Positions 5,873 through 26,361 of a stretch of 64,000 nt of DNA are shown piece after piece; position 1 is the stretch's first letter; each line of letters starts with the position of its first letter. A program made the translations under genes and the position numbers. Under the pieces are notes generated by a model. The model was given only the letters and a program-made list of their open reading frames with translations, made no database searches and was not told the DNA's origin. This DNA comes from Janibacter sp. Soil728 (GTDB taxonomy: Bacteria > Actinomycetota > Actinomycetes > Actinomycetales > Dermatophilaceae): NCBI RefSeq assembly GCF_001428305.1, contig NZ_LMRZ01000001.1, positions 186,289 through 250,288 of the forward strand, in the 5' to 3' direction.

Positions 5873-5885
5873 AGATACAGTATTC
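5873..5885. promoter_or_regulatory. Island operator site 1 (GAATAC-N-GTATTC type)
   Basis: AGATAC-A-GTATTC matches the palindromic consensus GAATAC-N-GTATTC at all but two positions. It lies 18 bp upstream of the start codon at 5904. Related sites occur at four other promoters of the island. Confidence 0.6.
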
Positions 5886-5903
5886 AATTGCGAGAGGGGA
5901 GCC

Positions 5904-6344
5904 GTGCGCAACTTTTCGATCTCATGCGTGTACGACGGCCCCGGCGCGGAGCACGTTTTGGATCATGCCCGCCTCCTCGCGGCCTCGGCCTCGCAGCCCC
6001 TGACCGTGCTGGTCACCGGTCGGGTCCTCGGCGGCGCAGAGCCCGCGCTCGTCGAGGTTGATGGAACAGCCCTCCTGCGGACGGCCCACCTGGGTGACGC
6101 AGGAGCGGCTACCTTCATCCGCCAGCCGCTGGGAACGGCCACCCTGTCGTGGGCCCACGCGCATATGCACCGCCAGCCGCACGGGATGCTCCTCGTCGCC
6201 GATCGACGCCCGAGTTTGCCTCGGGGTCTGGGCTGGCTCCACCACGTCTGCGGAGACCTGAGCTCGCAGCTGGCCCACACCAGCGATCGGTGCGACTGCG
6301 GCTGGGAGGTCAGGGCCGTGCCGAGGTTACGTCAGGGCCGGTAG
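5904..6344 (+). CDS. Hypothetical protein, first gene of the island
   Basis: This is a 146-residue protein that I do not recognise. It starts at a GTG after a strong GAGGGGAG ribosome binding site. It has no signal peptide or membrane segment. It is rich in His and Ala with a C-terminal DRCDCGWEVR segment containing two close Cys residues. Its promoter carries operator site 1, which places it in the same putative regulon as the uptake and oxidation genes. Its 3' end overlaps the convergent SDR gene by 13 bp. Codon use looks like the rest of the island. It could be a small binding or accessory protein. Confidence 0.6.
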   Translation: MRNFSISCVYDGPGAEHVLDHARLLAASASQPLTVLVTGRVLGGAEPALVEVDGTALLRTAHLGDAGAATFIRQPLGTATLSWAHAHMHRQPHGMLLVADRRPSLPRGLGWLHHVCGDLSSQLAHTSDRCDCGWEVRAVPRLRQGR

Positions 6345-6931
6345 ACGAGCCCTGTTTCGCCACTCTCGACCGAACGAACGAAGGCCTGACCGACGGCGTG
6401 GTCGTCGACGGAGGGAAAGCCCGGAAAGGCAGCGTCGTAACGTTCGCGTGAGCCCGCGAGAACCGTCGGGCTCACGACGTTGATCCGGTGTTCACCCCAC
6501 AGCTCCAACGCCGTCGAGCGGACCCACGCCTCGATGGCGGCGTTGATGGCCGACGACACACTGCCGCCACGGACCGGCTGGTCGGACAACACCCCGCTCA
6601 CCAGGGTGAAGGAGCCGCCGACAGGGACGATCTCGCGCGCCTGCTGCACCAGCATGATCTGGCCCAGAAGCTTGCCCTCGAGGCCAGCCATCCACTTTTC
6701 CCTGTCCATGCTCTCCCATGGGCCGAAGGGGGTTCCCCCCACCGCCGAGACCACGGCGTCGGCCCGGCCCACCGAGGTGAGCAGACGCGCCACCGATCCC
6801 CGATCGCCCAGGTCCACCGGGTGGTCAGGCGCGGTGCGATGCGCCGCGACGACCTCGTGCCCCCGCCCCCTCAGCGCCGCCACCGCAGCGCGTCCAATGT
6901 CCCCGCTCGCTCCGACCACCAGGATCCGCAT
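6332..6931 (-). CDS. Atypical short-chain dehydrogenase lacking the Tyr-x3-Lys motif
   Basis: This 199-residue protein begins with the Rossmann motif VVGASGDIGRAA and has the SDR helix ending INVVSPTVL. Where classical SDRs have Tyr-x3-Lys, the sequence reads SSAINAAIEAW, so both catalytic residues are absent. The Ser of LVSGVLSD is present. A subset of small bacterial SDRs shows this pattern, and some may bind nucleotide without classical catalysis. The ATG at 6931 follows AAGGAG. The gene is divergent from the DsbA-like gene across operator site 2, so both are probably controlled together. Confidence 0.75.
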   Translation of the reverse strand: MRILVVGASGDIGRAAVAALRGRGHEVVAAHRTAPDHPVDLGDRGSVARLLTSVGRADAVVSAVGGTPFGPWESMDREKWMAGLEGKLLGQIMLVQQAREIVPVGGSFTLVSGVLSDQPVRGGSVSSAINAAIEAWVRSTALELWGEHRINVVSPTVLAGSRERYDAAFPGFPSVDDHAVGQAFVRSVESGETGLVYRP

Positions 6932-6952
6932 CGTCGATCTCCTTCGCCTCGA

Positions 6953-6981
6953 TTGTTTGAATACAGGATACTGGATATGAG
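6953..6981 (+). promoter_or_regulatory. Island operator site 2 within a predicted promoter of the DsbA-like gene
   Basis: GAATAC-A-GGATAC (6959-6971) matches the island palindrome with two mismatches in the right half. On the + strand it fills the spacer between TTGTTT (6953-6958) and TATGAG (6976-6981), which are 17 bp apart. It also lies about 30 bp upstream of the divergent SDR start at 6931. Confidence 0.5.
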
Positions 6982-6999
6982 ATCCCCTAGACTTGGGCC

Positions 7000-7719
7000 A
7001 TGACACGGACACCTGAAGACTTCTGCAATCAGCACCCGAGGGTCATCACCGTCTGGTCCGACATCGGCTGCCCGTGGGCGACGCTCGCCTTGCACACCCT
7101 GCGCACCACGGCGGCCACGAAGCGCCAGCCCCTGCTCGTCGATCACCGAGCCTTCCCACTCGAGCTCTACAACGCCCGGCCCACTCCCAAGCTGGTCCTG
7201 GACGCGGAGATCGTGGCCATAGGCGCGCGGATCCCGGGCGTGGGCCTACGACTGTGGGATCGCGACCAGGCGACCTACCCAGTGACGACACTGCTCGCCA
7301 TGGAAGCCGTCCAGGCAGCGAAGGCCCCCGATGTAGGCGGGCTCGCAGCCAGTGACCAACTGGACGCGGCTCTACGCCGGGCCATGTACCACGATCATCG
7401 CTGCATCAGCATCCTGTCGGAGGTCGAGCGGTCCGCACGGGAGTGCGACGAGGTCAACGTCGAGGCACTGCTGGAGGCGCTGCACTGTGGCAGCGCCCGC
7501 GCAGACGTGTACGCGCAGTGGATGCTTTCCCATGACGAGTCCGTCCAGGGCAGCCCGCAGATCATGACCGCGCAGGGCACCTCCCTGCACAACCCGGGAG
7601 TCACGTACAACTGGACCGCGCCGCCGACTGACGGCGGGCTGCCCCACTTCACCGCCTATGAGACGTCGTGGGCGCACGACCTGCTGGGCGAGACCTCCGC
7701 GGTGGTGGACGGCGGCTAG
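7000..7719 (+). CDS. DsbA/FrnE-family thioredoxin-fold protein
   Basis: This 239-residue protein has the DsbA-like opening TVWSDIGCPWATLALHTL near residue 16. There is a single Cys in CPWA rather than a CxxC pair. The putative cis-proline segment QGSPQIM occurs near residue 185. Such proteins include FrnE-type oxidoreductases and 2-hydroxychromene-2-carboxylate isomerases of aromatic catabolism. A glutathione- or mycothiol-linked isomerase role fits this neighbourhood but is inference. There is no signal peptide, so it is cytoplasmic. Its TAG stop overlaps the stop of the convergent DUF5519 gene in a shared CTAG at 7716-7719. Confidence 0.75.
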   Translation: MTRTPEDFCNQHPRVITVWSDIGCPWATLALHTLRTTAATKRQPLLVDHRAFPLELYNARPTPKLVLDAEIVAIGARIPGVGLRLWDRDQATYPVTTLLAMEAVQAAKAPDVGGLAASDQLDAALRRAMYHDHRCISILSEVERSARECDEVNVEALLEALHCGSARADVYAQWMLSHDESVQGSPQIMTAQGTSLHNPGVTYNWTAPPTDGGLPHFTAYETSWAHDLLGETSAVVDGG

Positions 7720-8165
7720 CTGCCCAGCGTCATGGCGTACTGCCAGGACTGCTGCACGAGCCACCAGACCACCTCGAGCTCCTGCCGATCGCGGGGGCCA
7801 TACACGAGCACCGGAGGCTGCGCGGGGTGACGGACCCCCCACCCGGACCGCTCGACCACGTCCATCAACTCCTGCTCCACCATCAGGTGCAAGCTGCTGT
7901 CGGAGTGTGGGTGGACGTGCGCGAACTCGCGTCCGCCCTGGAAGGCCGCCGGGTCCCTCGAGCCGATGCCCTCGGGCAGGTGCAGGGCGCGCGAGTGCGG
8001 GACCGAGACCAGCGTCGGGGCCATGAAGACATACGGCAGGGCTCGCATCCGCGACCACAGCTCCTCCTGGAGCATCACGGGGGCCACTTGGCTGCGCTGG
8101 CCGTGCGGCGCCGGACCGACAACGTGGGGCGCCTCGCCGACGCGATTCGGGAGCTCGATCGTCAC
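7716..8165 (-). CDS. DUF5519 / 'luciferase' domain-family small protein
   Basis: About 149 residues. The core FAHVHPHSDSSLHLM, followed by a Gly-Trp-Gly-x-x-His-Pro segment, VLVYGPRD and a C-terminal ELEVVWWLVQQSW helix, matches the family annotated as DUF5519 or luciferase domain. The name derives from a distant fungal relative and does not mean light emission. I place the start at GTG 8165, because AAGGAG lies 7 nt upstream. An in-frame ATG at 8201 has no Shine-Dalgarno site. The conserved His residues suggest metal or substrate binding. It is divergent from the Dabb-cyclase-nitrilase operon across operator site 3. Confidence 0.7.
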   Translation of the reverse strand: MTIELPNRVGEAPHVVGPAPHGQRSQVAPVMLQEELWSRMRALPYVFMAPTLVSVPHSRALHLPEGIGSRDPAAFQGGREFAHVHPHSDSSLHLMVEQELMDVVERSGWGVRHPAQPPVLVYGPRDRQELEVVWWLVQQSWQYAMTLGS

Positions 8166-8194
8166 CAGAGCACTCCTTGTTCGACGGACGGGGG

Positions 8195-8222
8195 TAGACA
8201 TGCAGATGAGATTCAGTATTCT
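8195..8222 (+). promoter_or_regulatory. Promoter with island operator site 3, upstream of the Dabb-cyclase-nitrilase operon
   Basis: TAGACA (8195-8200) and TATTCT (8217-8222) are 16 bp apart and closely match -35 and -10 elements. The palindrome AGATTC-A-GTATTC (8209-8221) overlaps the -10 box. It has three mismatches to GAATAC-N-GTATTC. The site lies 39 bp upstream of the ATG at 8261. Confidence 0.6.
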
Positions 8223-8260
8223 ATCTTTAGTAGTTCACCTCACACAAGGAGAAGGTCTTC

Positions 8261-8560
8261 ATGATTCGACACGTCTTCGCTTGGCAGGTGGCCGACGACG
8301 CCGACGGCGGCGAGGTCATCCAGTTGCTCACCGACTTCTCGAAGGAGGTCGACATGATCCGCTACTTCGAAATCGGAGCACACGCGGGCGAGCCGAACGA
8401 CAACGGGGACCCGTGGGACGGCGTCCTCATCACCGACTTCGACAGTTGGGGGGACCTCGAGGCGTACTCGAACCACCCCGCCCACCTCGTCCTCGTCGAG
8501 AAGCTGCTGCCCAAGGTCAAGGGCCGGGTCGTCGTCGACTTCCTGAAGGAGGACAAGTGA
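8261..8560 (+). CDS. Dabb-type stress-responsive alpha/beta-barrel protein
   Basis: This 99-residue protein opens MIRHVFAWQVADDADG and ends in a strand plus the helix HLVLVEKLLPKVKGRVVVDFL. That is the ferredoxin-like Dabb fold, which forms dimeric barrels. Dabb proteins in catabolic clusters often bind or cyclise small aromatic or polyketide-like intermediates. ATG 8261 follows AAGGAG. It overlaps the cyclase-family gene by GTGA (8557-8560), so translation is coupled. The acidic surface loops around EPNDNGDPWDG are notable. The substrate is unknown. Confidence 0.75.
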   Translation: MIRHVFAWQVADDADGGEVIQLLTDFSKEVDMIRYFEIGAHAGEPNDNGDPWDGVLITDFDSWGDLEAYSNHPAHLVLVEKLLPKVKGRVVVDFLKEDK

Positions 8561-9504
8561 GCACCACAGCCGACCAGCGACTCGCCAACATCCAGGTCGG
8601 GATCAGCCCGTACGGCCCCCACGACGAACTGGGAGCCCTCAACACGTTGACTCCCGAGCGCCAGGTCTCGATCATGGCCCGCGTCGACGCCTCCACGGTC
8701 TACGACCTGAGCGTCGACTACTTCGTCGGGATGCCGAGTTTCCAGGCCGCCGGCGATCCCGCTTACCAGATCTACATGAGCCACACCCCGAACGGGACAC
8801 TCGTCGACAACCTCAATGGCGCTGGCGAAGAGATCAACCGTCACGTCTGCTACTCGGGTGATGTGATCCTCATGTACACCCACACCGGGACCCATATCGA
8901 CGCGCTGAACCACTTCGGTGTGGACGGCAAGATCTACAACGGCTTCAGCGCCGAGGAGAACCTCGGCAGCAGGGCCTGGACCAAGGGTGGCGCCGAGCGC
9001 ATCCCCCCGATGATCGCCCGGGGTGTCCTCATCGACATTGCCACGACGAAGGGCGTCGACTGCCTCGACGACTCGTACCCGATCACCGTGGAGGACTGCC
9101 AAGAAGCCCTCGAGCGGGTGGGCCTCACCCTCGAGGAGGGCGACGTCGCGTTGATCCGCACCGGTCGTATGCGCTACTGGCCCGACGGGACCAAGACGCT
9201 CGGCAACCCTCCCGGCCTCAGCCTGGAGGCAGCGCGCTGGCTCACGTCCCAGGGCATCAGCACCATCGGATCTGACCAGGAGTGCGTCGAGGTCGGACCC
9301 TCCCAGCACGAGGACAACTGGCTGCCCGGCCACGGCCACTTCCTCACCGAGGCCGGCGTGCCGATGATCGAGCTGGCCAACCTCGAGGAACTGGCGGCGA
9401 ACGCGGTCAACGAGTTCTGCTTCATCGGCTCACCGATCCGCCTACGCGGGGCGTCGGGAACCCCCCTTCGCCCCTTGGCCCTCCCCCTGAGGGACGGGCG
9501 TTGA
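8557..9504 (+). CDS. Cyclase-family metal-dependent hydrolase (PF04199; kynurenine formamidase/isatin hydrolase fold)
   Basis: About 315 residues. The metal-binding signature HTGTHIDALNHFG sits at roughly residues 109-121. A second conserved block around IGSDQECVE and NWLPGHGHFL follows. Family members are Mn/Zn hydrolases that open amide or lactam bonds, such as N-formylkynurenine formamidase and isatin hydrolase. The true start is a GTG overlapping the Dabb stop; long in-frame upstream sequence is spurious. The nitrilase gene overlaps its stop by TTGA. In an island with a Mo-hydroxylase and a dioxygenase it could open a hydroxylated ring. That is inference. Confidence 0.8.
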   Translation: MSTTADQRLANIQVGISPYGPHDELGALNTLTPERQVSIMARVDASTVYDLSVDYFVGMPSFQAAGDPAYQIYMSHTPNGTLVDNLNGAGEEINRHVCYSGDVILMYTHTGTHIDALNHFGVDGKIYNGFSAEENLGSRAWTKGGAERIPPMIARGVLIDIATTKGVDCLDDSYPITVEDCQEALERVGLTLEEGDVALIRTGRMRYWPDGTKTLGNPPGLSLEAARWLTSQGISTIGSDQECVEVGPSQHEDNWLPGHGHFLTEAGVPMIELANLEELAANAVNEFCFIGSPIRLRGASGTPLRPLALPLRDGR

Positions 9505-10331
9505 GCACCGACCTCAAGGTTGCAGCAATCCAGGTCGCCCACGTCGACGACGAGGACCCGGACGCACGATGGGCCCGGACCAGCGAGCTGGTCCGGGCCC
9601 ATCGGCATCACGACCTCATCGTCCTGCCGGAGCTGTGGTCCAACGGGGCCTTCTCCCCCGCGGGCTGGGACGAGTCCGCCGAGCCTCTCGACGGGCCGCA
9701 CGTCCAACGGCTGGCCGATCTCGCACGTGAACTCGGGGTGACCCTGCACGGCGGGTCGTTCATCGAGCGGAGCATCGAGGCGGGCGCTGATGGAAGGCAC
9801 CTGTGGAACACGTCCGTCGTCCTCGGTCCGGACGGATCGCTACGCGCCGTCTACCGCAAGATTCACCGCTTCGGTTTCGGCGAGGGGGAACCGCTGCTCC
9901 TCGAGGCGGGGAGCGAACTGGCGACCTTCGACATGGGCGGCACGACCATAGGCCTGGCCACCTGCTACGACCTGCGCTTCCCGGAGCTGTTCCGCGCGTA
10001 TGTCGATCATGGCGTCGAGGTGTTCCTCGTCCCGGCGTCGTGGCCGGATGCACGGCGTGAGCACTGGCAGCTGCTCGGCCGGGCGCGTGCCCTCGAGAAC
10101 CAGGCCTGGGTCGTGCAAGTGAATGTCACCGGGGCCCACGGTGGGCTGGATATGGGTGGTCACAGCCAGGTGGTCGCCCCCATGGGCCGGGTCGTCGGGT
10201 CCCTCGACCGTGACGAAAGCTGCCTGAGCGCCGTGCTCGACCTCGAGGTTCTGCGCGCGGCCCGCGACAACTTCCCGGTCCTCGCCGACCGCCGCGTCGG
10301 CCGGCTGGATCGTGGCGGCGTCCGGACGTGA
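9501..10331 (+). CDS. Nitrilase-superfamily carbon-nitrogen hydrolase (amidase)
   Basis: This 276-residue enzyme has the complete Glu-Lys-Cys triad: E44 in VLPELW, K120 in YRKIHRFGFGEG and C155 in ATCYDLRFPELF. The Arg-Phe-Pro after the Cys is typical of the amidase branches (omega-amidase or carbamoylase-like) more than of true nitrilases. It starts at a rare TTG that overlaps the cyclase stop (TTGA), with a GAGGGACGGG stretch upstream. It is the last gene of the three-gene operon. It would release ammonia from an amide intermediate in the cytoplasm. It ends 17 bp before the convergent MFS gene. Confidence 0.85.
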   Translation: MSTDLKVAAIQVAHVDDEDPDARWARTSELVRAHRHHDLIVLPELWSNGAFSPAGWDESAEPLDGPHVQRLADLARELGVTLHGGSFIERSIEAGADGRHLWNTSVVLGPDGSLRAVYRKIHRFGFGEGEPLLLEAGSELATFDMGGTTIGLATCYDLRFPELFRAYVDHGVEVFLVPASWPDARREHWQLLGRARALENQAWVVQVNVTGAHGGLDMGGHSQVVAPMGRVVGSLDRDESCLSAVLDLEVLRAARDNFPVLADRRVGRLDRGGVRT

Positions 10332-10348
10332 CGTGCGCGGCGCCCGGG

Positions 10349-11539
10349 TCAAACCGTGAATGTCGGACGCGGGCGCTGCGCCAACCACACGACCACGCAG
10401 AAGCCCCCGAGGATCAAGAAGCTGAACTCGGGCGCTAGATGCGCCGTCGCCCGCGTCACGAGGATCGGGATCCCGAAGCCGAGGTAGGCGATCGCGTAGA
10501 AGCCCGCCGTCGCCGTGCCGGCCCGGCCCGGCGCGACCACGTCCGGGATGCGCGCCAGCCCACCTGACAGCGCGAGACCACCGCCGGACCCGAGCGCAAT
10601 GACGGCAGGAACGAGCAGGAGCTTGGCCGACTCGTTCACGGTCGCCGCAGCGGTGAGCGCCATGCCGATGGCGCCGAGCAGGCCGGCCATCGGCACCGCT
10701 CTCTCCCGCAGGCGTGCCTGCCAGGTGGAGACCACCGCGCCGGACCCGAGGGTCAACGCAGCCAGTCCCCCGGTCACGGCCACGGCGGCGACGGGCAGGC
10801 CCACGACGAGCGGCACCGCGTTGATGGCCGTGGCGGGGAACCCGAAGACGAAGAGCGCGGGAGGGGCCACCACCAGGAGCGCCCGACGACGGGCGCCGCT
10901 GCGGATCACGGGACCGCGCATCGCACGGCTCCCGTCCGATGCGACGCGCGCGGCTGGGACACCGACTGCAGTCCACCAGGCGATGAGAGCGCACGCGCCG
11001 GCGTGGATCAGGTAAGGGGCGAGCACCGGCCACGGCCACCACTCACCCCACAGGCCGGCGACGAGGGAACCGCCGGCGAAACCGCCACTCATGCACACCG
11101 CCGCGACCCGGGCCCCTCGCCCCGGCCCCCTGGTGGCGAGGAGCTGCTGGATCCACACGCTGGCCGACACGAAGACGGCACCGGCGGCGCCCCCCTGGAC
11201 CGCTCTGAGCGCGAAGAGGGCAACGACCGACGAGCCGGCAAGGGCGAAGCCCGTGGAGATCAGGGCCGCGACGAGACCCGCCGTGAGGACGACCCTGCGG
11301 GCCCCCCACCGGTCGGTCATGGCACCGGCCACGAGCACCGCGGGGATCAGGCCGATGGCGTAGACACCAAAGAGCCCGGCCGTCTGCTCGTCGGTGAGCC
11401 CCAGCTGCTGCTGGTGGACCAGCAGCAGCGGCACCGGGACATTGGTGCCGGCGGACACCGCGACGAGCAGGGCGCCCACCCGAACGACGTGCTGGGTCGA
11501 CGCCCGTGGGCCGGACTCGATCACCTTCCCGCTAAGCAC
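10349..11539 (-). CDS. MFS transporter
   Basis: About 396 residues with 12 predicted hydrophobic segments and the MFS motif DRWGARRVVL after helix 2. It is the last gene of the leftward operon that begins with the zinc dehydrogenase. The GTG at 11539 overlaps the FAD reductase gene by 8 bp. A second GTG at 11524, after GCGGGAAG, is an equally good start. It could import the substrate or export an intermediate. The island also has its own ABC importer, so efflux or a second substrate is possible. The family does not tell direction or specificity. Confidence 0.75.
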   Translation of the reverse strand: MLSGKVIESGPRASTQHVVRVGALLVAVSAGTNVPVPLLLVHQQQLGLTDEQTAGLFGVYAIGLIPAVLVAGAMTDRWGARRVVLTAGLVAALISTGFALAGSSVVALFALRAVQGGAAGAVFVSASVWIQQLLATRGPGRGARVAAVCMSGGFAGGSLVAGLWGEWWPWPVLAPYLIHAGACALIAWWTAVGVPAARVASDGSRAMRGPVIRSGARRRALLVVAPPALFVFGFPATAINAVPLVVGLPVAAVAVTGGLAALTLGSGAVVSTWQARLRERAVPMAGLLGAIGMALTAAATVNESAKLLLVPAVIALGSGGGLALSGGLARIPDVVAPGRAGTATAGFYAIAYLGFGIPILVTRATAHLAPEFSFLILGGFCVVVWLAQRPRPTFTV

Positions 11540-12734
11540 GCGCGAGCTCGGTGGCCAACTGTGCCGGCAGCTCGGCTCCCTCCGTGATGACGGCTCGCGC
11601 CTCTTCGAGGTCCTCGGGGCGACCGCGGGTGACGGCGCCGACGACGCGGCCCTGGCTCAACTGCCAGACGGTGAAGTCACCGTCGCGGTCGCCCGTGACG
11701 ACCTCCTGGTCGATGTCGCCAGCCAGACCCACGTACTCGAGGCTGGTCCAGTCGGCGATGTCGCTCCAGAAGTAGGGGAGCTCCGTGTGCTCCACGCCGT
11801 GCCCGAGCATGTTGCGGGCGGCCGTGCGCCCCTGTGCCTCGGCATGCCGCTCGTGCTCGATCCGCACGTGCCGTCCGTGCAGGACACTGTCGTACTCGCA
11901 GACGTCACCCGCGGAGAACACATGAGGGTCGCTCGTGGTCAACCGGGCGTCGCACAAGATGCCGCGGCTCGCACCGATCTCCAAGCCCGCACTGTGGGCG
12001 AGCTTGGTGTCCGGGACGGCACCGACACCGACGATGACGACGTCGGCCGGGACCTCGAGACCGTCGCTCGTGGCCACTGCGGTGACCCGCTCGTCCCCGA
12101 GGAAGGAGCTGACCTGGCCGCCGTGGTGGATCGTCACACCCTTTGCGCGGAGCAGGTCGTCGACGTGCTGGGCGACCTCACCACCGAAGCTCGTGGCGAG
12201 GCAGCGGTCCTCGAGCATGACCATCGTGCACTCGTGACCGAGCGCGCGCAGTGTGGCTGCGGCCTCGACGGCCACGAAGGAGCCCCCCACCAGGACGACC
12301 CGTCGCGGTCCGTCGAGCTCCTCGCGGACGTGCTGGGCGTTGAGCGGAGCACGCAGGTAGTGGACTCCGGGCAGGGTGGCTCCCTCCACGGGCAGGCGCC
12401 GGACCATCGCCCCGGTGGCCAGGAGGAGCTTGTCGTAGCCGACCTCCCTCTTGTTGGCCAGCCGCGCCACGCGCTGCTCAAGGTCGAGCGTCATCACCGG
12501 GGACCTCGTGAGGAGCGTGACGTCATGCTCGGCGTACCAGTCGTCGGGGACGACGCCCACCGGTGCATCGCCGCGCAGCAGGTCCTTGGTGATCGGCGGC
12601 CGGTGGTAGGGCGGGTGCAGCTCGCGCGTCACGAGAGTCACCGCGCCGGAGTATCCCTGCTCCCGCAGCTCGGTGGCCGCGCTCACCGAGGCGACCCCGC
12701 CCCCGATGATGAGCATGCCGCTGTCCTGGCTCAT
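11532..12734 (-). CDS. FAD-dependent ferredoxin/rubredoxin reductase (BphA4/RubB-like)
   Basis: This 400-residue pyridine-nucleotide-disulfide-type reductase has the FAD-binding LIIGGGVASVSAA at the N-terminus, an ATGA motif near residue 105, an NAD-binding VLVGGSFVAVEAA near residue 145, and FSAGDV in the second FAD segment. It ends in the reductase C-terminal domain seen in oxygenase-coupled reductases. It starts at ATG 12734, 4 bp after the rubredoxin stop. It should pass electrons from NAD(P)H to the adjacent rubredoxin and then to the Rieske oxygenase. No [2Fe-2S] ferredoxin gene for that role is visible here. Confidence 0.85.
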   Translation of the reverse strand: MSQDSGMLIIGGGVASVSAATELREQGYSGAVTLVTRELHPPYHRPPITKDLLRGDAPVGVVPDDWYAEHDVTLLTRSPVMTLDLEQRVARLANKREVGYDKLLLATGAMVRRLPVEGATLPGVHYLRAPLNAQHVREELDGPRRVVLVGGSFVAVEAAATLRALGHECTMVMLEDRCLATSFGGEVAQHVDDLLRAKGVTIHHGGQVSSFLGDERVTAVATSDGLEVPADVVIVGVGAVPDTKLAHSAGLEIGASRGILCDARLTTSDPHVFSAGDVCEYDSVLHGRHVRIEHERHAEAQGRTAARNMLGHGVEHTELPYFWSDIADWTSLEYVGLAGDIDQEVVTGDRDGDFTVWQLSQGRVVGAVTRGRPEDLEEARAVITEGAELPAQLATELARA

Positions 12735-12738
12735 GCGA

Positions 12739-12924
12739 TCAGTCCTCGTCGTAGGGCTCGTAGTCCGACTTGCGTGCGCCGCACACGGGGCACACCCACG
12801 AGTCGGGGATGTCCTCAAAAGCGGTGCCGGGCGGGATCCCGCCCTCGGGGTCGCCCTCGACCGGGTCGTAGATGTCGCCGCAGGCCATGCACATCCATTT
12901 CTGTCCCAGGATCGTCGTGCTCAT
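12739..12924 (-). CDS. Rubredoxin
   Basis: This 61-residue protein has two CxxC knuckles (C12/C15 and C45/C48), the IYDP motif and the acidic [12 protein letters not shown] motif. These are the features of one-iron rubredoxins. Its ATG overlaps the upstream stop by one base (TGATG). It lies between the orphan 105-residue gene and the FAD reductase. Rubredoxins usually serve alkane hydroxylases or oxidative-stress proteins. Here the only nearby oxygenase is the Rieske-type pair, so it is probably that enzyme's electron carrier. This needs biochemical proof. Confidence 0.92.
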
Positions 12925-13241
12925 CAGTCCTCCATCTCGGGTGTTTGGTTGGTCCATCGCGTGGCGCTGGGGTCCAGGAACTTCGACAGGTCCCGGTGGG
13001 TGAGCCAGGCCAGCGACTCGAGCTCGATGGCGTCGAGGTCGATCGTCTGCCGCGTCCGCAGATCCTCGATCCGCAGCCGGGTGCGCCCCGGCGGGCCGAC
13101 CACCTTGATGCTCACCACGGCGAACTCGTTGCGGACGACGAGACGGGACGGGTCACGGTTGGACATCTCGGCGATCAGGTTGTCGATGACCTGTGCCTCG
13201 GCGTCCGGCTCATCGTCTCCCAGCAGGTGGAACTCACTCAT
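12924..13241 (-). CDS. Uncharacterised small protein of the Rieske oxygenase operon
   Basis: This 105-residue acidic protein is one I do not recognise. It has a predicted helical N-terminus and a beta-rich middle ([14 protein letters not shown] and [11 protein letters not shown]). It ends in a helical segment with two Trp residues. It has no Cys, no signal peptide and no membrane segment, so it is not an iron-sulfur carrier. It starts 14 bp after the oxygenase beta-subunit stop and its own stop overlaps the rubredoxin start. This tight placement between oxygenase and electron carrier suggests an assembly, gating or third-subunit role. Confidence 0.65.
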
Positions 13242-13255
13242 GCTCGCTCACCGGC

Positions 13256-14988: not shown

Positions 14989-15022
14989 TAAAGGGCTCCT
15001 GCAGTGGTGTGTGGACGGGTCG

Positions 15023-16108: not shown

Positions 16109-16128
16109 CTCAAACTCTCCTGTCGATA

Positions 16129-16158
16129 GAATGCAATATTCACTGTGATACAGTTCTC
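16129..16158. promoter_or_regulatory. Island operator site 4 between the two divergent oxidation operons
   Basis: GAATGC-A-ATATTC (16129-16141) matches the consensus palindrome with two mismatches. A weaker second copy, TGATAC-A-GTTCTC (16146-16158), follows 4 bp later. The region separates the dehydrogenase-dioxygenase operon (leftward) from the molybdenum hydroxylase operon (rightward), so one regulator could control both. Confidence 0.6.
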
Positions 16159-19461: not shown

Positions 19462-19943
19462 GCACAGTCACCGTGAAGGTCAACGTCAACGGCACACCTC
19501 GCACTATCGAGGTGGAGTCGCGCACCTCCCTCGCCGATCTCCTCAGGGACCGGGTACGACTCACCGGCACGCACTTGGGGTGCGAGCAGGGGGTGTGCGG
19601 CAGTTGCACGGTCCTCATGGACGGACTCCCGGTCCGATCGTGCCTCACCCTGGCCGCGAGCTGCGACGGAGCAGAGGTCGTCACGGTGGAGGGCCTCGAC
19701 GACGCCGATGCCCACCGGTTGCGCCAACACTTCTCGACCGAAGGCGCCCTCCAGTGCGGCTTCTGCACCTCAGGCATGTTGGTCACCGGCTACGAGCTCG
19801 TACGCCGGCGCACCGAGATGGACCGCGATCAGGTCGCGTGTGCCTTGGCAGGCAACATCTGCCGGTGTACCGGCTACAACGGCATCATTCGGGCTGTCCA
19901 GAAGGCCAACGACGACGGCATGGCCGTCGACGACCTGACCTGA
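19458..19943 (+). CDS. Molybdenum hydroxylase small ([2Fe-2S]) subunit, CoxS-like
   Basis: This 161-residue protein has the plant-type cluster motif LGCEQGVCGSCTVLMDG in its N-terminal half. The second cluster domain carries QCGFCTSGM and ICRCTGYNGI. The eight Cys ligands are all present. It links the Moco subunit to the FAD subunit. Its ATG overlaps the medium-subunit stop by ATGA. A 34-bp gap separates it from the CoxG-like gene, still within the same operon. Confidence 0.92.
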   Translation: MSTVTVKVNVNGTPRTIEVESRTSLADLLRDRVRLTGTHLGCEQGVCGSCTVLMDGLPVRSCLTLAASCDGAEVVTVEGLDDADAHRLRQHFSTEGALQCGFCTSGMLVTGYELVRRRTEMDRDQVACALAGNICRCTGYNGIIRAVQKANDDGMAVDDLT

Positions 19944-19977
19944 GCCCCCACCATCATCCAAACGCTAGGAGCAGCGA

Positions 19978-20709
19978 ATGCAGTTCATCAGTACCTTCGA
20001 CATCCCGGCACCGATCTCGCAGGCCTGGGATCTCCTCGGAGACATCCCCCAGATCGCCCCCTGCCTTCCGGGCGCCACCGTCCGGCCGCTCTCGGACGAC
20101 ACTTACGAAGGTGACGTGGCCATCAAGGTGGGCCCCATCAAGGCGGGGTACTCCGGCACCGCGACGGTGACGGCCCGGGACGACCAGGCACATGTCATGA
20201 CCATCGAAGCGAGTGGGCGCGAGGGCAGCGGCAAGGGGTCGGCGGCAGCGACGATCACGCTGCGCCTCGCCCCAGTCAGTGACCAGGCCACGAGGGCGGA
20301 GGTGACTACCGACCTCACGATCACCGGAAAGCTGGCTCAGTTCGGGCGCAGCGCCCTCGCCGACGTGAGCCAGCGCCTGATGGACCAGTTCGCCGACAAC
20401 CTCGCACGACAGGCGCTGGGCACGGACACCGCGGCCCCCGCCGCGATGCCTACTGGCGCAGCACCGGCAGCGCGCACCGACCACGCGGTCGCCGCGCCCG
20501 GTACGTCCAACGAGCTCAACGCGCTCGCCCTGGCAGGCCCTCTCGCGCTGCGGGCACTACCGGTCCTCGGCGCCGGGCTCGTTGGCATCGTGCTGGGTGC
20601 CCTGTGGGGACGGGCGAAGGGTGCTCCCGCGGCCCCGATGTCGGCGCCCCTTCCGCCGTGGTACTTCACCATGCCGTCCGGTCAGGACAGCGTCCGCTTC
20701 CCGCTCTGA
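19978..20709 (+). CDS. CoxG-like SRPBCC protein with C-terminal membrane anchor
   Basis: This 243-residue protein begins with an SRPBCC domain of about 145 residues. The features IPAPISQAWDLLGDIPQIAPCLPGA and YEGDVAIKVGPIKAGYSGT are typical of CO dehydrogenase subunit G. A low-complexity Ala/Pro/Thr linker and a hydrophobic helix near residues 185-208 follow. CoxG homologues are thought to recruit or mature molybdenum hydroxylases at the membrane. This is the last gene of the Mo-hydroxylase operon and is followed directly by a strong hairpin terminator. Confidence 0.82.
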   Translation: MQFISTFDIPAPISQAWDLLGDIPQIAPCLPGATVRPLSDDTYEGDVAIKVGPIKAGYSGTATVTARDDQAHVMTIEASGREGSGKGSAAATITLRLAPVSDQATRAEVTTDLTITGKLAQFGRSALADVSQRLMDQFADNLARQALGTDTAAPAAMPTGAAPAARTDHAVAAPGTSNELNALALAGPLALRALPVLGAGLVGIVLGALWGRAKGAPAAPMSAPLPPWYFTMPSGQDSVRFPL

Positions 20710-20716
20710 CACGAGC

Positions 20717-20768
20717 GGGTATGGATCGGCCCCCCAGCGATGTATCGCTGGGGGGCCGATCCATACCC
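20717..20768. terminator. Very long bidirectional terminator hairpin
   Basis: The arms 20717-20741 and 20744-20768 form a 25-bp uninterrupted stem around a minimal centre; the left arm starts GGGTATGGATCGG. It sits between the convergent coxG-like and GntR genes, 7 bp from one stop and 8 bp from the other. It should end transcription from both sides. Confidence 0.88.
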
Positions 20769-20776
20769 GGGGAAGA

Positions 20777-21499
20777 TCAGCGATCCAGATCCTCGGGGTA
20801 GCCTTCAATGTCTTGTGAGGACAGGTAGACCTTGGTCGCCTCCCACGCTGCATTCAGGTGGGTCTCGAGCGCTTCGATCGCGCCGGCGCCGTCGCCGGCC
20901 TCGATCTTCTCCGTCAAGGTTGTGTGCTCGCAGTGCGCCGCGTGCAGTCGCTTGTCGGTGCGGCTGTTGATGACGTACCGCTCCGCCGTGTTCCACAGCA
21001 TGCAGAGGTGTCGGAACAGAAGGCCCTCCTTGCCGGCGGCGCGGAACAACGCGAAGTGGAAGGCCCTGTGCGCGTGCAGCATGTCCGGCGACGCCGCTGG
21101 CACACCTTGGTCGACAAGCTCCGCCATCCTGTCGAGCCAGTAACGCATGTCCTGCGCCACGTCACCGGGGTTGAGGGCCGCGCGTTCCGCCGCGAGATTT
21201 TCGATGCGGTTGAGCATGACAAAGGCGTCGTGGATGTCATTCCCGGACAGGGCGCTGATCACCGTGCCACGTCGTGGCACGTTCACCACGAGGGACTCCG
21301 CCTCGAGCTGCCGAACTGCCTCGCGCAGCGGAACCCGGCTGACGCCCAACTCCTCCGCCAACGAGTACACCGACAGGCGCTGATCAGGTTTCAGCTGCCC
21401 CAAAACGATCCGGTCGCGAATCTGCTCGGTGACGAATTCAGTTACCGTCGGGGGTGAAGCCGTTCCCGACCCGCCGCGCAACTCGTTGCGTGTGCTCAT
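20777..21499 (-). CDS. GntR-family (FCD domain) transcriptional regulator
   Basis: This 240-residue protein has an N-terminal winged helix with VYSLAEELGVSRVPLREAVRQLEAESLV near residues 45-72, typical of the FadR subfamily. The all-helical FCD effector domain carries a His/Asp metal-binding set in HRAFHFALF and HCEHTTL. It is the only transcription factor inside the island. The FadR subfamily commonly binds short palindromes with TAC/GTA-like halves, so it is the best candidate for the GAATAC-N-GTATTC sites. The ligand is probably a carboxylic acid of the pathway. The promoter region contains a different palindrome. Confidence 0.88.
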   Translation of the reverse strand: MSTRNELRGGSGTASPPTVTEFVTEQIRDRIVLGQLKPDQRLSVYSLAEELGVSRVPLREAVRQLEAESLVVNVPRRGTVISALSGNDIHDAFVMLNRIENLAAERAALNPGDVAQDMRYWLDRMAELVDQGVPAASPDMLHAHRAFHFALFRAAGKEGLLFRHLCMLWNTAERYVINSRTDKRLHAAHCEHTTLTEKIEAGDGAGAIEALETHLNAAWEATKVYLSSQDIEGYPEDLDR

Positions 21500-21544
21500 G
21501 TTTCCTCTCCTGACGTCGCCGGGAGGATCCCCCGCCCACTATCC

Positions 21545-21566
21545 CAACTATAGTTGTCTGTATACC
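21545..21566. promoter_or_regulatory. Palindrome upstream of the GntR gene
   Basis: CAACTATAGTTG (21545-21556) is a perfect 12-bp palindrome, followed by GTATAC (21560-21565), which resembles a half of the island operator. It lies about 45-65 bp upstream of the GntR start and may be an autoregulatory site. Confidence 0.45.
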
Positions 21567-21655
21567 AACCCGTCGTCTCTCACGCGCGCCATCAACCGCG
21601 GTTCTCTCGCAAGATACGGGAGCCACAGCGCGCAGGCGACCGGACGATGCAAATC

Positions 21656-21692: not shown

Positions 21693-21721
21693 AACCCATT
21701 GCTAACTGCTGGGGCACCTAC

Positions 21722-22987
21722 TCACTTGCCCTTGCCAATCGCCTCAGCCTTGTAGAACTTATCGACCGTCCACTTGCCGTCGGCCACCTGGAACACCGCG
21801 TACGAGCCGGGAACGGTGCCCGTCTCGTCGAAATCGACCGGTCCTGAGGCGCCGTCGTAGTCGATGTCCTCACCGGCCTTGAGCGCAGCAGCGCCCTCCT
21901 TGAAACTCGTGACCTTTTTGCCACTGCTGGAGACCTTCGGCAGGTTCTCCGCGATGCTCTCGCCGCACGTGCTGTCACCGGCCACTGCGGCGAGCGCCGC
22001 CAGGGTGAGCGCGTCGTAGGCGTTCTCCGCGAAGATCCCCGGCGCCTCTCCGTACTCCTTCTCGTACGCGGCGCTCAGGGCCTTGGCCTGCGGACGCTTC
22101 GCGTCCGCCTTCGCCGTGACCCCCGTCAGCCCGTCGGCCCAGTCCTTGCCCACGCCCGTGATCACGTCGTTCACGACGAGGTCGGCGGACACGATGACAT
22201 CCTTGCCGTGGACCCCGGCGTCACGCATCTCCTTGAGGATGGTCGTCGCCGACTCCTGGCCACCTGCGAGGTAGACGGCATCGGCCTTCGCACCCGTCGC
22301 CTGCTGGACGACCGACTGGTAGGACGCCTGGCCCGGGTTGTACTTGATGGTCTTGACGACCTTGCCGCCGGACTTGGTGAAGTTCTCCTCGGCCTTCTGT
22401 CCGGCCGTAATCGTCGACTGGTCGTTCTGGACGACGATGACGATGTCCTTCTTGCCCTCGTCCGTCAGGTACTGGGCGATCGCTTCACCGTCCGACGCGT
22501 CCGAGGCCACGGTGCGGAAGAGGTAGGTCCCCCCGACCGCATCGAAGTTCGTCGTTCCCGCGAACTGGGAGATGATTGGCACCTTGTAGCGCGTGGCCAC
22601 GCTGTCCATGGCAACGATGGGTCCGGAGGAGGGCCCGAGGATCACGGAGACCTTGTCCTTCTGCATCATGTCCGTTGCCGCACGCAGACCGACCTGAATG
22701 TCGGTCTTCTCGTCGGAGACGACGGTCGACGTCTTCCAGCCCTCGGGCAGCTCACCCGAAGCATTGACGTCGTTGATCGCGAGTTTGAAGGAGTTCTGCG
22801 AGACCTCGCCGAACTCCCCGAGCTCGCCCGTGAAGGCGGTCAGAACGCCGAACTTGAGGTCCGTCCCGCAGTCCTTGTCCGACGCGCCAGCGGTGCCGTT
22901 TGCCGACGCGCACGCCGACATCATCGACGCGAGGGCGAGGGCACCGACGCCTACTGCGGCGGTGCGCCGCTTCCCGTGGTTATTCAT
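21722..22987 (-). CDS. Branched-chain-amino-acid-type ABC importer, substrate-binding lipoprotein (LivJ/K family)
   Basis: This 421-residue protein has a positively charged N-terminus, a hydrophobic segment and a lipobox ending MSAC, with C26 as the lipidated residue. The mature part follows the type I periplasmic-binding fold: KFGVLTAFTGELGEFG, then LGPSSGPIVAMDSVATRYKVPIISQFAGT, then an NAYDALTLAA helix. Relatives bind branched-chain amino acids or, in catabolic clusters, aromatic acids. It is last in the five-gene importer operon. It would hold the pathway substrate on the outer face of the membrane. Confidence 0.88.
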   Translation of the reverse strand: MNNHGKRRTAAVGVGALALASMMSACASANGTAGASDKDCGTDLKFGVLTAFTGELGEFGEVSQNSFKLAINDVNASGELPEGWKTSTVVSDEKTDIQVGLRAATDMMQKDKVSVILGPSSGPIVAMDSVATRYKVPIISQFAGTTNFDAVGGTYLFRTVASDASDGEAIAQYLTDEGKKDIVIVVQNDQSTITAGQKAEENFTKSGGKVVKTIKYNPGQASYQSVVQQATGAKADAVYLAGGQESATTILKEMRDAGVHGKDVIVSADLVVNDVITGVGKDWADGLTGVTAKADAKRPQAKALSAAYEKEYGEAPGIFAENAYDALTLAALAAVAGDSTCGESIAENLPKVSSSGKKVTSFKEGAAALKAGEDIDYDGASGPVDFDETGTVPGSYAVFQVADGKWTVDKFYKAEAIGKGK

Positions 22988-23037
22988 CTGGTGGTTCTCC
23001 TACCTGTGTGTACTTCGTTGTACCTGGTGGGTGGTCA

Positions 23038-23727
23038 TCAATCGAGGGCGAGGGCCAGTGCCTGGTCGCCGCTCATGGCGGAGGCCGGTCCCTCGAACTT
23101 CACGGAGCCTTCTGCCAACACATACGCGCGGGCGGCTGCCGCTAGAACGGGCTCGGGGTTCTGCTCAACGATCCACACGATCGAAACCCCGGTTTGGGCG
23201 ATGTCGACGATCCAGTCCGTGAGGCTCGCCGAGGCAAGCGGGGAGAGTCCCGTCGTCGGCTCGTCGAGCAGGAGCAGCTGCGGTCGTCCCAGAACGGCCA
23301 TCGAGACGGCGAGTGCCTGACGCTCACCGCCGGAGAGGCTGCCCGCTGCCTGCTGAGAGCGGTCCCGCAGGATCGGGAACCGACCGAAGACGTCATCCAA
23401 GACATCCTTCGCCTGTGCCGCACCCGCCAGGTCGAGGTTCTCCTTGACGGACAGGTCACCGAAGACATTGCGTTCCTGAGGGACGTAGCCGATCCCTGCG
23501 CTGACGGCGCGGTACGGTCTCCACCCCGCCATGGTGGTGCCGTCGAGAGTCAGGGAGCCCCCCATGAAGGGGATCGCCGCCGACAGCGTCTTCATGAGAG
23601 TGGACTTTCCGGCGCCGTTGGGACCCAAGATGGCGACGAGCTCGCCGTCACCCACCTCGAAGTCCACACCGTGTAGGACCTGTGCCTTGCCGTAGCCGGA
23701 GACGAGGTCACGAGCTTGCAGATGCAT
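23038..23727 (-). CDS. ABC importer ATP-binding protein (LivF family)
   Basis: This 229-residue ATPase has Walker A GPNGAGKST near residue 34, the Q-loop region YVPQERNVF, signature LSGGERQ near residue 136 and Walker B LLLLDEPTTGLSP. The VPQxRxVF motif and the length identify the LivF rather than LivG branch. ATG 23727 overlaps the upstream livG-like gene by 20 bp. It ends about 50 bp before the binding-protein start. It forms a heterodimeric motor with the LivG-like subunit. Confidence 0.88.
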   Translation of the reverse strand: MHLQARDLVSGYGKAQVLHGVDFEVGDGELVAILGPNGAGKSTLMKTLSAAIPFMGGSLTLDGTTMAGWRPYRAVSAGIGYVPQERNVFGDLSVKENLDLAGAAQAKDVLDDVFGRFPILRDRSQQAAGSLSGGERQALAVSMAVLGRPQLLLLDEPTTGLSPLASASLTDWIVDIAQTGVSIVWIVEQNPEPVLAAAARAYVLAEGSVKFEGPASAMSGDQALALALD

Positions 23728-24478
23728 CTTTGGCCCTTCCGAGGTAAGCGTTGATGACGGCCTCATCGGCGGAGATGACGTCCGGCTCTCCGGAGGCGAT
23801 GAGGCCCCCCTGCGACATGACGTGGACGTAGTCGACGTTTTCGAAGAGGAAGCGCAGGTTGTGCTCGACGAGCAGGACCGTGGTCCCGTCGGCGTTGATC
23901 TCCTTGAGGGTCGTCGACAGCTGGTCCTGGTAGCCGCGGTCAAGACCCGCAGTGGGCTCGTCGAGCATGAGCAGCCGAGGCTCTCGCGCGAGCTGGCGGG
24001 CGATCTCGAGCATCCTCAGCTCACCCCCGCTCAACAAGTCGATGGTGCTGTCGGCGAGGTGCCCAAGCTTGAGCCGATCGAGCACCTCCTGCGCCGCGGC
24101 ACGGTGCCGCCGATTGGGGCCTGGCCGGAAAAGCGCACCGAAGAGGCCTTCGCGCACGTCGTCGAACATCACCTCGACGTTCTGGCTCACTGTCAGGCTC
24201 GGGAAACTGCGCGGCGCCTGGAAAGTCCGAGCAACCCCGATCTTGGAGATGCCGGCGACCCCGCCCAGACCGGCTAGGTCGTGCTCACCGATCCAGATGG
24301 CTCCGGAGCTCGGCTCGAGGACACCCGTGATGAGATTGAACATCGTGGTCTTGCCCGCACCGTTCGGGCCGATGAGCCCGGCGATACCGCCCGGCGCGAC
24401 GTCGAAGGTGACGTCGTCGACGGCGGTGACCCCTCCGAAGTGTTTGCTGGCGTGCTGGACGGAGATTCCGAGACTCAT
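23708..24478 (-). CDS. ABC importer ATP-binding protein (LivG family)
   Basis: This 256-residue ATPase has Walker A GPNGAGKTT, signature LLSGGELRMLEIARQLA, Walker B LLMLDEPTAGLD and the LivG-type FNLITGVLEP and RTFQAPRSFPSLTV stretches. The H-loop is VEHNLRFLF. Its ATG overlaps the livM-like stop by ATGA and its 3' end overlaps livF by 20 bp, so all subunits are made from one message. Confidence 0.88.
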   Translation of the reverse strand: MSLGISVQHASKHFGGVTAVDDVTFDVAPGGIAGLIGPNGAGKTTMFNLITGVLEPSSGAIWIGEHDLAGLGGVAGISKIGVARTFQAPRSFPSLTVSQNVEVMFDDVREGLFGALFRPGPNRRHRAAAQEVLDRLKLGHLADSTIDLLSGGELRMLEIARQLAREPRLLMLDEPTAGLDRGYQDQLSTTLKEINADGTTVLLVEHNLRFLFENVDYVHVMSQGGLIASGEPDVISADEAVINAYLGRAKDASASS

Positions 24479-25467
24479 GTGGTCGGCTCCTTCACGAAGG
24501 CCGTGGCTGTGGGCTTGGGCTCGTGGTCGGGTCCCGTTGATGTCCTCTTGGGACGCAGACCCCTGAGCAGCTGCGCAGCGCCGCCGGGGGCGAAGCGGAG
24601 CAGGAGGATGAGCAGGAGTCCCTCGAGGACGGCCTGCACCGCACCAGTCTTCTCGGCAATCGTCGGGTTCGTCGCCAACTGGCGCACGCTCTCCTGGAAG
24701 CCGATGAGGATCCCCGCGCCGAGGATGGCACCGAGGTTGGAGCCCACGCCGCCGAGGATGAGGGCGATGAACACCGTGAAGGTGACCTCGGCGTGGAAGA
24801 GGTCGGGGCTGGCGACCGTCGTGTACCAGAGATACATGGCACCGGCGGCACCGGAAATGCCCGCGCCGAGGAGGAAAGCCTGCAGACGGAGGCGGCGGAC
24901 GTTCTTGCCGGCCTGCACCGCCGCGATCTCGTCGTCCTGCAGGGCCAACAGGGCACGTCCGAAGGGTGCCCGAGTCACTCGGCTGACGATGAGCAGTGCG
25001 ACGATGACCAGTGCGGCGATGAGGCCGGCCAGGACCATCGGATAGGCCTCAGGCACTATCCGGGCACTCAACGGCTGCTCGATGCCGAGGAAACCCAGGG
25101 TCCCGTTGGTCACCGAGGTCGTGTTGGTCACGAGAGACCCGAACACCTCGGCGAAGGCGAAGGTCGTGAGGGCCAAGTACTCACCGCGCAGGCGTAGGCA
25201 TGGCCAGCCCGTGATCGCGGCGAAGAGGACGGCCGCGATCACCGCGCCGATCAGGCCCACCCATATCGGCTGGTCAAAGCCGAACTTGTATGTGTCGAAC
25301 TCCGTGGGAGGCGGCTGCGTGATAACCACATATGCGTATGCACCAGCGGTGAAGTACGCCACGATGCCAAAGTTGATCAGGCCGGCGTACCCCATCTGCA
25401 CGTTGAGTGCGAGGGCGAGGAGGGCGAAGATGCCCCCAAGCGTGATGGTCGCGATGATGAGGTCCAT
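24475..25467 (-). CDS. ABC importer permease (LivM family)
   Basis: This 330-residue membrane protein has about nine hydrophobic segments and the family pattern NVQMGYAGLINFGIVAYFTAGAY near residue 23. The cytoplasmic coupling loop FGRALLALQDDEIAA is near residue 168. It lies 1 bp after the livH-like stop. The C-terminal extension after about residue 295 is hydrophilic and Pro/Thr-rich. Together with the LivH-like protein it forms the channel. Confidence 0.88.
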   Translation of the reverse strand: MDLIIATITLGGIFALLALALNVQMGYAGLINFGIVAYFTAGAYAYVVITQPPPTEFDTYKFGFDQPIWVGLIGAVIAAVLFAAITGWPCLRLRGEYLALTTFAFAEVFGSLVTNTTSVTNGTLGFLGIEQPLSARIVPEAYPMVLAGLIAALVIVALLIVSRVTRAPFGRALLALQDDEIAAVQAGKNVRRLRLQAFLLGAGISGAAGAMYLWYTTVASPDLFHAEVTFTVFIALILGGVGSNLGAILGAGILIGFQESVRQLATNPTIAEKTGAVQAVLEGLLLILLLRFAPGGAAQLLRGLRPKRTSTGPDHEPKPTATAFVKEPTT

Positions 25468-25468
25468 G

Positions 25469-26329
25469 TCAGGCCACCCGCACCTTCTTGCCGAAGAGAC
25501 CCTGCGGCCGGAACAGCAACACGGCGATGATGATCAGGAAGGCCACGGCGGTGCGGTACCCCGAGGGAACGATCAGCGTTGACAGGTCCATGGCGATGCC
25601 GATGGTGAAGGCAGCGATCGCCACCCCGTAGACCGACCCCAGGCCAGCGAGGATGGACACTGCGAGGATCAGCAGGATCTGCGCGAAGGCCAAGTCCGTG
25701 GTGAGCGTGCCCATCATCCCCAGGCATACGCCGCCGAGGGCTGCTAGCGCGGAGGCAATGATCCACACGTCGCGCGTGGCTCGCCGCACATTGATGCCGC
25801 GGATCTCCGCCAGCTCACGGTTGTCGGCGATCGCCCGCACGGATGCCCCTGCCTGCGTCCGCGAGAGGAACAGGTGCAGCGCAAGGAAGGCCAGTCCCGC
25901 CAGAGCCACGATCGCCACCTGGTAGGGCGTGACGTTGACGCCGGCAACCTTCCAAGAGTCGAGTCGCGGGAGCGCGTAACTCTTCGTCCCAGGGCTGACG
26001 ACGATCTCGGTGATGCCCTGCAGGAGATATACCACGCCCACCGAAAGGATGAGGAGGATCTCGGGCCCTCTTGCCAGCATCGACTCGAACACCGTGCGAC
26101 CGATGAACCATCCGAGGCAGCCCACAGCCGCGATGCTCACGACAGCCGCGATGATGAAGTTCAACCCGACTTCAACACTCAGGTAGTAGGTCATCAGTGC
26201 GCCAACAGCCATGTACTCCGCGTGAGCGATGTTGAGGAACTTGTTCACCCGGCTCGTCAGAGCGAACCCAAGTGTTGCGATGAGGAGAAATGCGCCGCTA
26301 ACGACGCCGAACCAGAGGTAACTAAGCAT
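25469..26329 (-). CDS. ABC importer permease (LivH family)
   Basis: About 286 residues with eight or so hydrophobic segments. The LivH pattern RVNKFLNIAHAEYMAVGALMTYYL is near residue 27. The coupling segment GASVRAIADNRELAEIRGIN is near residue 160. I take ATG 26329 as the start. A TTG at 26338 in the same frame is possible, but its AAGG lies too close. It is first in the operon livH-M-G-F-K, with a promoter and operator site 5 directly upstream. The gene order matches importers of branched-chain amino acids, ureas or aromatic acids. Confidence 0.85.
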   Translation of the reverse strand: MLSYLWFGVVSGAFLLIATLGFALTSRVNKFLNIAHAEYMAVGALMTYYLSVEVGLNFIIAAVVSIAAVGCLGWFIGRTVFESMLARGPEILLILSVGVVYLLQGITEIVVSPGTKSYALPRLDSWKVAGVNVTPYQVAIVALAGLAFLALHLFLSRTQAGASVRAIADNRELAEIRGINVRRATRDVWIIASALAALGGVCLGMMGTLTTDLAFAQILLILAVSILAGLGSVYGVAIAAFTIGIAMDLSTLIVPSGYRTAVAFLIIIAVLLFRPQGLFGKKVRVA

Positions 26330-26348
26330 GCAGTCCAACCTGCCTTCT

Positions 26349-26361
26349 GAATACGGTATAC
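26349..26361. promoter_or_regulatory. Island operator site 5 upstream of the ABC importer operon
   Basis: GAATAC-G-GTATAC matches the consensus GAATAC-N-GTATTC with one mismatch, the best match in the window. It begins 20 bp upstream of the livH ATG and, as at site 1, lies 3 bp from the predicted -10 box. Confidence 0.65.

Follow-up and report, generated by a model that had tools for sequence, protein, structure and literature searches.

A candidate GntR/FCD regulon with six predicted operators in a catabolic gene island of Janibacter sp. Soil728

Candidate operators in the island and their rarity in the genome

We analysed a window of 64,000 nucleotides from Janibacter sp. Soil728 (contig NZ_LMRZ01000001.1, positions 186,289 to 250,288), which holds an island of about 20 kb that probably breaks down a nitrogen-containing aromatic compound and that encodes its own GntR/FCD regulator (Table 1). 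Five intergenic words of this island, S1 to S5, fit the 13-mer GAATAC-N-GTATTC (GAATACNGTATTC), with one mismatch in S5, two each in S1, S2 and S4, and three in S3. A sequence-only reading had proposed these words as binding sites of the GntR protein. All five are present, and a weaker sixth site that it did not list, S6, lies in the gntR promoter region and was found with a matrix built from relatives only. The words were also said to lie between start codons throughout, which fails for S1, with a stop on one side (5764) and a start on the other (5904). The sites, their conservation, their co-occurrence with GntR orthologues and their placement relative to predicted promoters are direct observations, from which we infer that S1 to S6 are very likely operators for the GntR/FCD repressor (VanR-type) that the island itself encodes; the repressor's binding, repressive action and inducer are predictions from sequence.

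This genome was searched with patterns genome-wide, and with matrices on the window and on a 180-kb sample of nine 20-kb stretches. Counted plainly in the window (G+C 69.8%), the 13-mer at up to three mismatches gives 7 matches versus 2.94 expected, a number reached by 4/100 shuffles and only mildly unusual. At up to two mismatches, the 3.64-Mb genome holds four places, namely S1, S2, S4 and S5; the many equally good sites at unrelated promoters that would speak against a local regulon were thus not found. The reversed control pattern, counted irrespective of position, also has four places genome-wide at this level, and at up to three mismatches the count of 101 versus 94 for the reversed control is background. 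An IUPAC pattern derived from S1 to S5 has exact matches at those five sites and nowhere else genome-wide, a circular result that shows exclusivity, and with one mismatch it returns 23 further rows versus 16 for the control. When the best shared 13-bp palindrome was sought in six island gaps and scored as the sum of the best five, the half-site GAATAC came out with a score of 50; 400 Markov-simulated gap sets had a mean of 43.6 and a maximum of 47, and none was as good.

Five of the three-mismatch places outside the island, chosen by eye among the matches listed, were scored as possible operators with the 20-mer matrix described below and were rejected, the best reaching just 8.1. That place precedes a gene which, from its start, we take to resemble ArsR, and another outside three-mismatch place sits in what is presumably 16S rRNA.

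Table 1. Predicted operators, regulator and other genes of the island, in window coordinates
Feature	Position	Strand	Basis or context
Operator S1 (predicted)	5859–5885 (13-mer 5873–5885)	no strand	Upstream of the gene at 5904–6344; 3 bp after TAGGAT
Operator S2 (predicted)	6959–6978	no strand	Between divergent 6332–6931 (-) and 7000–7719 (+)
Operator S3 (predicted)	8202–8228	no strand	Between 7716–8201 (-) and 8261–8560 (+)
Operator S4 (predicted)	16122–16141	no strand	Between divergent alcohol dehydrogenase (ADH)-Rieske operon (-) and molybdenum (Mo) hydroxylase operon (+)
Operator S6 (predicted)	21546–21565	no strand	47–66 bp upstream of gntR (start 21499, minus strand)
Operator S5 (predicted)	26349–26375	no strand	Upstream of ABC-transporter operon (start 26329, minus strand)
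GntR/FCD regulator, 240 aa, predicted repressor of six operators	20777–21499	-	Pfam and structure model
146-aa protein, downstream of S1	5904–6344	+	No Pfam or NCBIfam match
SDR/NAD-dependent epimerase-like protein	6332–6931	-	Pfam
DsbA-like protein (weak)	7000–7719	+	Pfam DSBA 0.0037, below cut-off
Luciferase-domain protein	7716–8201	-	Pfam PF17648
Dabb-domain protein, cyclase (PF04199), carbon-nitrogen hydrolase; after S3	8261–10331	+	Pfam; inner starts approximate
ADH, Rieske oxygenase alpha and beta, 105-aa protein, ferredoxin reductase, MFS transporter; after S4	10349–16108	-	Pfam
Mo-hydroxylase L, M and S subunits and CoxG; after S4	16235–20709	+	Pfam
Branched-chain-type ABC transporter: two permeases, two ATPases, binding protein; after S5	21722–26329	-	Pfam

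The motif in related gene clusters

A scan of species genomes for the GntR protein gave 68 loci: six full-length ones at 53–58% identity entered the motif work, and the partial locus L026 and 61 more distant loci did not. A scan of 390 genomes of the Pseudonocardia acaciae family gave 12 matches, including five of those six. Together the two scans yield eight GntR orthologues at 53–58% identity and five more distant proteins at 44–48%. The orthologue clusters occur in Amycolatopsis, Pseudonocardia and Streptomyces and in two genomes referred to here as G1277 and G1278. Mo-hydroxylase genes lie near gntR in all eight loci, and ADH-Rieske-reductase genes do so too in 4/8, as many as keep the gene order from ADH to reductase. 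L026, from Rhodococcus wratislaviensis, carries a GntR fragment (9881–10261) that is 73% identical over residues 24–86 only and perhaps a remnant; its 20 kb hold no other match to the window proteins compared.

Expectation-maximisation motif discovery on 16 upstream stretches from the eight relatives, with no window sequence included, gave GAATACAGTATTC as a 13-mer and GAAGATAGAATTCTATCTTC as a 20-mer. Judged by sequence, this de novo motif is the one first proposed for the window. Confident sites lie upstream of Mo-hydroxylase in 6/8 relatives and upstream of gntR in 6/8, and from these 12 sites we built relatives-only matrices. In the window, the 11 best positions of the 20-mer matrix all fall at S1 to S5 and S6, and the six best of the 13-mer matrix all fall at S1 to S5, so that the comparison with upstream regions of orthologous clusters suggested by the sequence-only reading comes out in its favour. 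S4 has the window's highest 20-mer score (20.0) and S1 the lowest of the six sites (8.4), and scores at S3 (14.9 and 13.4 in two overlapping registers starting at 8202 and 8209, 7 bp apart), S2 (14.8) and S6 (13.0) lie in between; the 13-mer scores are 15.8 for S2, 12.9 for S1, 12.3 for S3 and 6.1 for S6. The mean best 20-mer score over the six gaps, 13.8, was reached by none of 2000 column-permuted matrices. With leave-one-genome-out matrices the top match fell in a cluster gap in 8/8 loci, among them P. spinosispora and P. acidicola, from which no site had entered the matrix, and a 13-mer matrix from the window sites alone put its top match at a cluster site in 7/8 loci, the exception being P. 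spinosispora. In the five distant GntR loci, each covering about 20 kb, no score exceeds 9.5, and we read these loci, from sequence, as probable paralogues with another regulon. Searching all 68 loci for the 13-mer at up to two mismatches gave scattered matches in nine distant loci, which we read as background.

Aligning the relatives' sites on the 20-mer leaves A5, G8, A9, A10 and C13 invariant in 14/14, in a register set by the same fit. Their core hexamer is GAATTC in ten, GAAAAC in two, and GAATAC and GAATCC in one each; the GT-N2/3-AC core of the FadR subfamily is absent from these 14 sites, which keep G and C at N4 spacing. By this alignment the operator is probably centred on the G-N4-C hexamer, and the 13-bp palindrome, though a real shared motif, is off-centre and better written as a 20-bp palindrome. 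The 13-mer covers the core hexamer plus a single outer arm; a pair of overlapping 13-mers shifted by 7 bp gives the full 20-mer. The window copies have diverged from the relatives' consensus GAAGATAGAATTCTATCTTC, and several have overlapping registers 7 bp apart; S6 has a second register with a GTATAC core (21553–21572), and among the six sites GTATAC is found in S5 and S6 only, in one register each. It is possible, though doubtful, that these features mark a distinct GntR operator class with GA/TC for GT/AC, in which centres 7 bp apart would accommodate two dimers or a tetramer per site, with bridging across the 20-kb island, and in which the repressor and its whole operator set would have been transferred together from one actinobacterial family to another.

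Several results weigh against assigning these sites to the GntR protein. The 16 stretches were picked after 13-mer matches had been seen in many of them, and the 13-mer equivalent of the permutation result was reached by 11/2000 matrices. P. spinosispora and P. acidicola have no site upstream of gntR, and the P. acaciae gntR site ranks only fourth in its leave-one-out scan. Off-cluster 20-mer matches of 13.1–16.5, equalling S2, S3, S5 and S6, occur in the 45–60 kb regions of A. taiwanensis, P. acaciae, P. spinosispora and G1278. Counted over whole genomes at up to three mismatches, the 13-mer outnumbers its reversed control by a factor of 1.5 to 2.4 in 5/6 relatives, and the A. rubida genome (G906) has at least 17 distinct places at up to two mismatches, mostly outside the cluster among the matches listed; unlike in the window's genome, the 13-mer is not exclusive there. 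Some window registers no longer have the core G or C (S1 GGATTT, S3 AGATTC), and the five distant GntR proteins share the recognition-helix core SRVPLREA yet lack the motif. Finally, S1 by its 20-mer score and S3 and S6 by their 13-mer scores are not outstanding against the maxima of the 180-kb sample (20-mer 11.4, 13-mer 13.0); the six sites are outstanding as a set, not each singly.

The regulator, its promoters and alternative readings

The GntR protein has an N-terminal winged helix-turn-helix (PF00392, E 2.1e-17) and a C-terminal FCD domain (PF07729, E 2.6e-13). Six-helix effector domains define the VanR group and seven-helix ones FadR, and the AlphaFold model (mean predicted local distance difference test score 87) has six C-terminal helices, as in the VanR group; its Foldseek matches include the FCD structures 7u5q, PmiR, Atu1419, TM0439, McbR and AlkR. 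By sequence profile the closest solved chain is PmiR of Pseudomonas aeruginosa (PDB 7xp0, 7xp1; E 3.3e-27). The stretch SRVPLRE is kept in 8/8 orthologues. Since the distant GntR proteins keep it as well but lack the motif, specificity must lie elsewhere too. In six aligned orthologues H148, H192 and H214 are invariant, and the Asp position of 7xp0 is occupied by an equally invariant His (H144); together these residues could form a four-His metal site, whereas the ligand set given in PMC7797058 for metal-binding FCD domains is three His and Asp/Asn.

Promoters were taken as the best-scoring hits of a simple scan without control. The promoter facing away from Mo-hydroxylase has the same layout in the window and five relatives: TTGACA, a spacer of 17–18 bp, the -10 box and the operator 0 to +6 bp later. 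At S4 the operator directly adjoins the ADH promoter TTGACA-17-CACAGT, a placement kept in relatives, and in A. taiwanensis no ADH follows that promoter. The earlier statement that two sites lie 3 bp after a -10 box stands for S1 only, S4 lying at +0 under this promoter scoring. S5 overlaps the promoter TTGACC-17-CACAAT at its -10 box, and in G1277 and G1278 the operator overlaps the -10 box of the Mo-hydroxylase promoter in the same way. The scan read no convincing promoter at S2, S6 and several of the relatives' gntR sites. Because sites follow or overlap the -10 box wherever a promoter is readable, repression is implied. As in a local repressor regulon, a putative operator lies in the regulator's own promoter region in 6/8 relatives, S6 of the window being weaker. 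In the mechanism we propose, a GntR dimer would sit on the imperfect 20-bp palindrome of each operator and, bound after or across the -10 box, would block RNA polymerase, so that one repressor would silence uptake, Mo-hydroxylase, Rieske oxygenase, cyclase-nitrilase and accessory genes as well as gntR itself. Release would then come from an inducer, either the substrate or an intermediate; this is probably N-heteroaromatic or the acid formed from such a compound. Control of the island genes by GntR, as first suggested, is thus well supported as a prediction by the relatives-only recovery, the 8/8 leave-one-out result and the 6/8 sites upstream of gntR.

The operators could be real and be read by another regulator, either the WYL protein (3437–4516) or a second GntR of the relatives, which we consider unlikely. 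The assignment to GntR is made from sequence, the WYL gene adjoins the island, and a second GntR (26–27% identity) stands beside the first in 4/8 relatives (SID10853, P. acaciae, P. spinosispora and A. rubida; L018 9319–10002, L019 11415–12095 and L021 11460–12182), while A. taiwanensis has two other GntR proteins (29–31%) about 17 kb away. The regulator survey covered homologues of window proteins; among the 28 window proteins compared, the regulators are GntR and WYL, and GntR is the only one with homologues in all eight loci, WYL having none there at the thresholds used. A tblastn search found no second GntR in the window region, G1277 or G1278; since all three have sites, this protein is not the motif's common reader. 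It goes instead with TTGTATACAA-like words, present in the Mo-hydroxylase/ADH gap of 3/4 clusters that carry this protein and absent from the clusters of all other loci (A. taiwanensis has one such word at 50958, outside its cluster), and perhaps provides a second inducer input.

That the words are merely AT-rich -10 elements appearing palindromic in GC-rich DNA is very improbable. Several sites do touch or overlap -10-like hexamers, but the conserved block spans 20 bp, lies downstream of the -10 box in six promoters and keeps both arms across genera; column-permuted 20-mer matrices of equal composition fail in 2000/2000 trials, and none of the nine 20-kb stretches of this genome scores above 11.4. 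We give almost no weight to chance, in which case the eye would simply have picked out five loose matches. In favour of chance are the weak plain count in the window and the three mismatches of S3, but the places with at most two mismatches are confined to the island in this genome, 0/400 simulated promoter sets were as good, and the window sites are recovered by a matrix holding no window sequence. We therefore retain S1 to S6 as predicted operators of the island's GntR/FCD repressor.

The island, comparable systems and significance

Gene calls come from open reading frame, codon-composition and Pfam analysis. The 105-aa protein occupies the ferredoxin position of its operon and has no Pfam match. 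The closest solved structure to the Mo-hydroxylase large subunit is quinoline 2-oxidoreductase (PDB 1t3q, E 1.7e-148), a likeness that suggests an N-heteroaromatic substrate. Segments between 5700 and 26340 have a G+C of 64.7–68.5%, and those outside 70.4–71.4%. A GntR orthologue was found only in the window's own genome among 186 genomes of the family (E 1e-25) and among 394 sampled in the class (1e-35), as was Rieske alpha among 396 sampled in the order (1e-90); because both are restricted to this genome at the limits used, the island is probably rare and acquired. Nineteen plasmid records carry relatives of Rieske alpha, every one below 60%. A perfect 26-bp inverted repeat with a 2-nt loop (20716–20769) between the convergent coxG and gntR ends is probably a bidirectional terminator, and a perfect 11-bp inverted repeat with a 4-nt loop (5750–5775) lies across the stop of a glyoxalase gene at the left island edge. 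In P. acaciae (L019), a gene for an isochorismatase-family hydrolase (16740–17330; Pfam 2.1e-37) lies between operator and ADH, whereas the window has ADH first and cyclase and nitrilase-type genes elsewhere in the island.

The closest parallel described is Atu1419, a VanR-group FCD/GntR repressor of hydroxycinnamate genes in Agrobacterium fabrum (PMC7797058; PDB 6z74, 6za3). According to that paper, the palindrome bound by Atu1419, ATGTATACAT, has G3 and C8 four bases apart, G3 being read by Arg45, which we equate with the Arg of SRVPLRE on the strength of the motif, not of a printed alignment; G8 and C13 of our 20-mer have the same G-N4-C geometry. The two systems share the FCD fold, a local regulator of a catabolic region and of its own promoter region, and several palindromes per region that overlap the -10 box or lie between -35 and -10. 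They differ in that the core is mostly GAATTC here and GTATAC for Atu1419, the conserved arms here reach 20 bp, the Asp/Asn ligand position of the FCD domain is His here (H144, by alignment to 7xp0), the six operators here extend over about 20 kb, and the substrate class is probably another. Suvorova et al. 2015 (PMC4494728) give GT-N2/3-AC as the usual FadR-subfamily core and report many GntR operators with weaker half-sites 7–12 nt from the centre; the sites described here resemble such regulons in their palindromic AT-rich operators, half-site boxes 7–12 nt from the centre and single site for divergent operons, and differ in that most lack the TKGT/ACMA boxes.

This kind of system, a regulon under a local GntR/FCD repressor, is known, and the present regulon is a further case; among the paper titles listed in our literature searches (for one of them 15 of 497), none is about this operator or GntR clade. 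The analysis makes the regulon testable: it names the regulator, gives coordinates for six operators and predicts the operator sequence of a small GntR/FCD clade. A transporter, two redox enzyme systems and the hydrolases of a probably N-heteroaromatic pathway are thereby joined into one unit, and the inducer could therefore be used to find the substrate. The operators remained recognisable while the repressor diverged to 53–58% identity, and the switch sequence shared with related clusters of other soil bacteria points to one on-board repressor.

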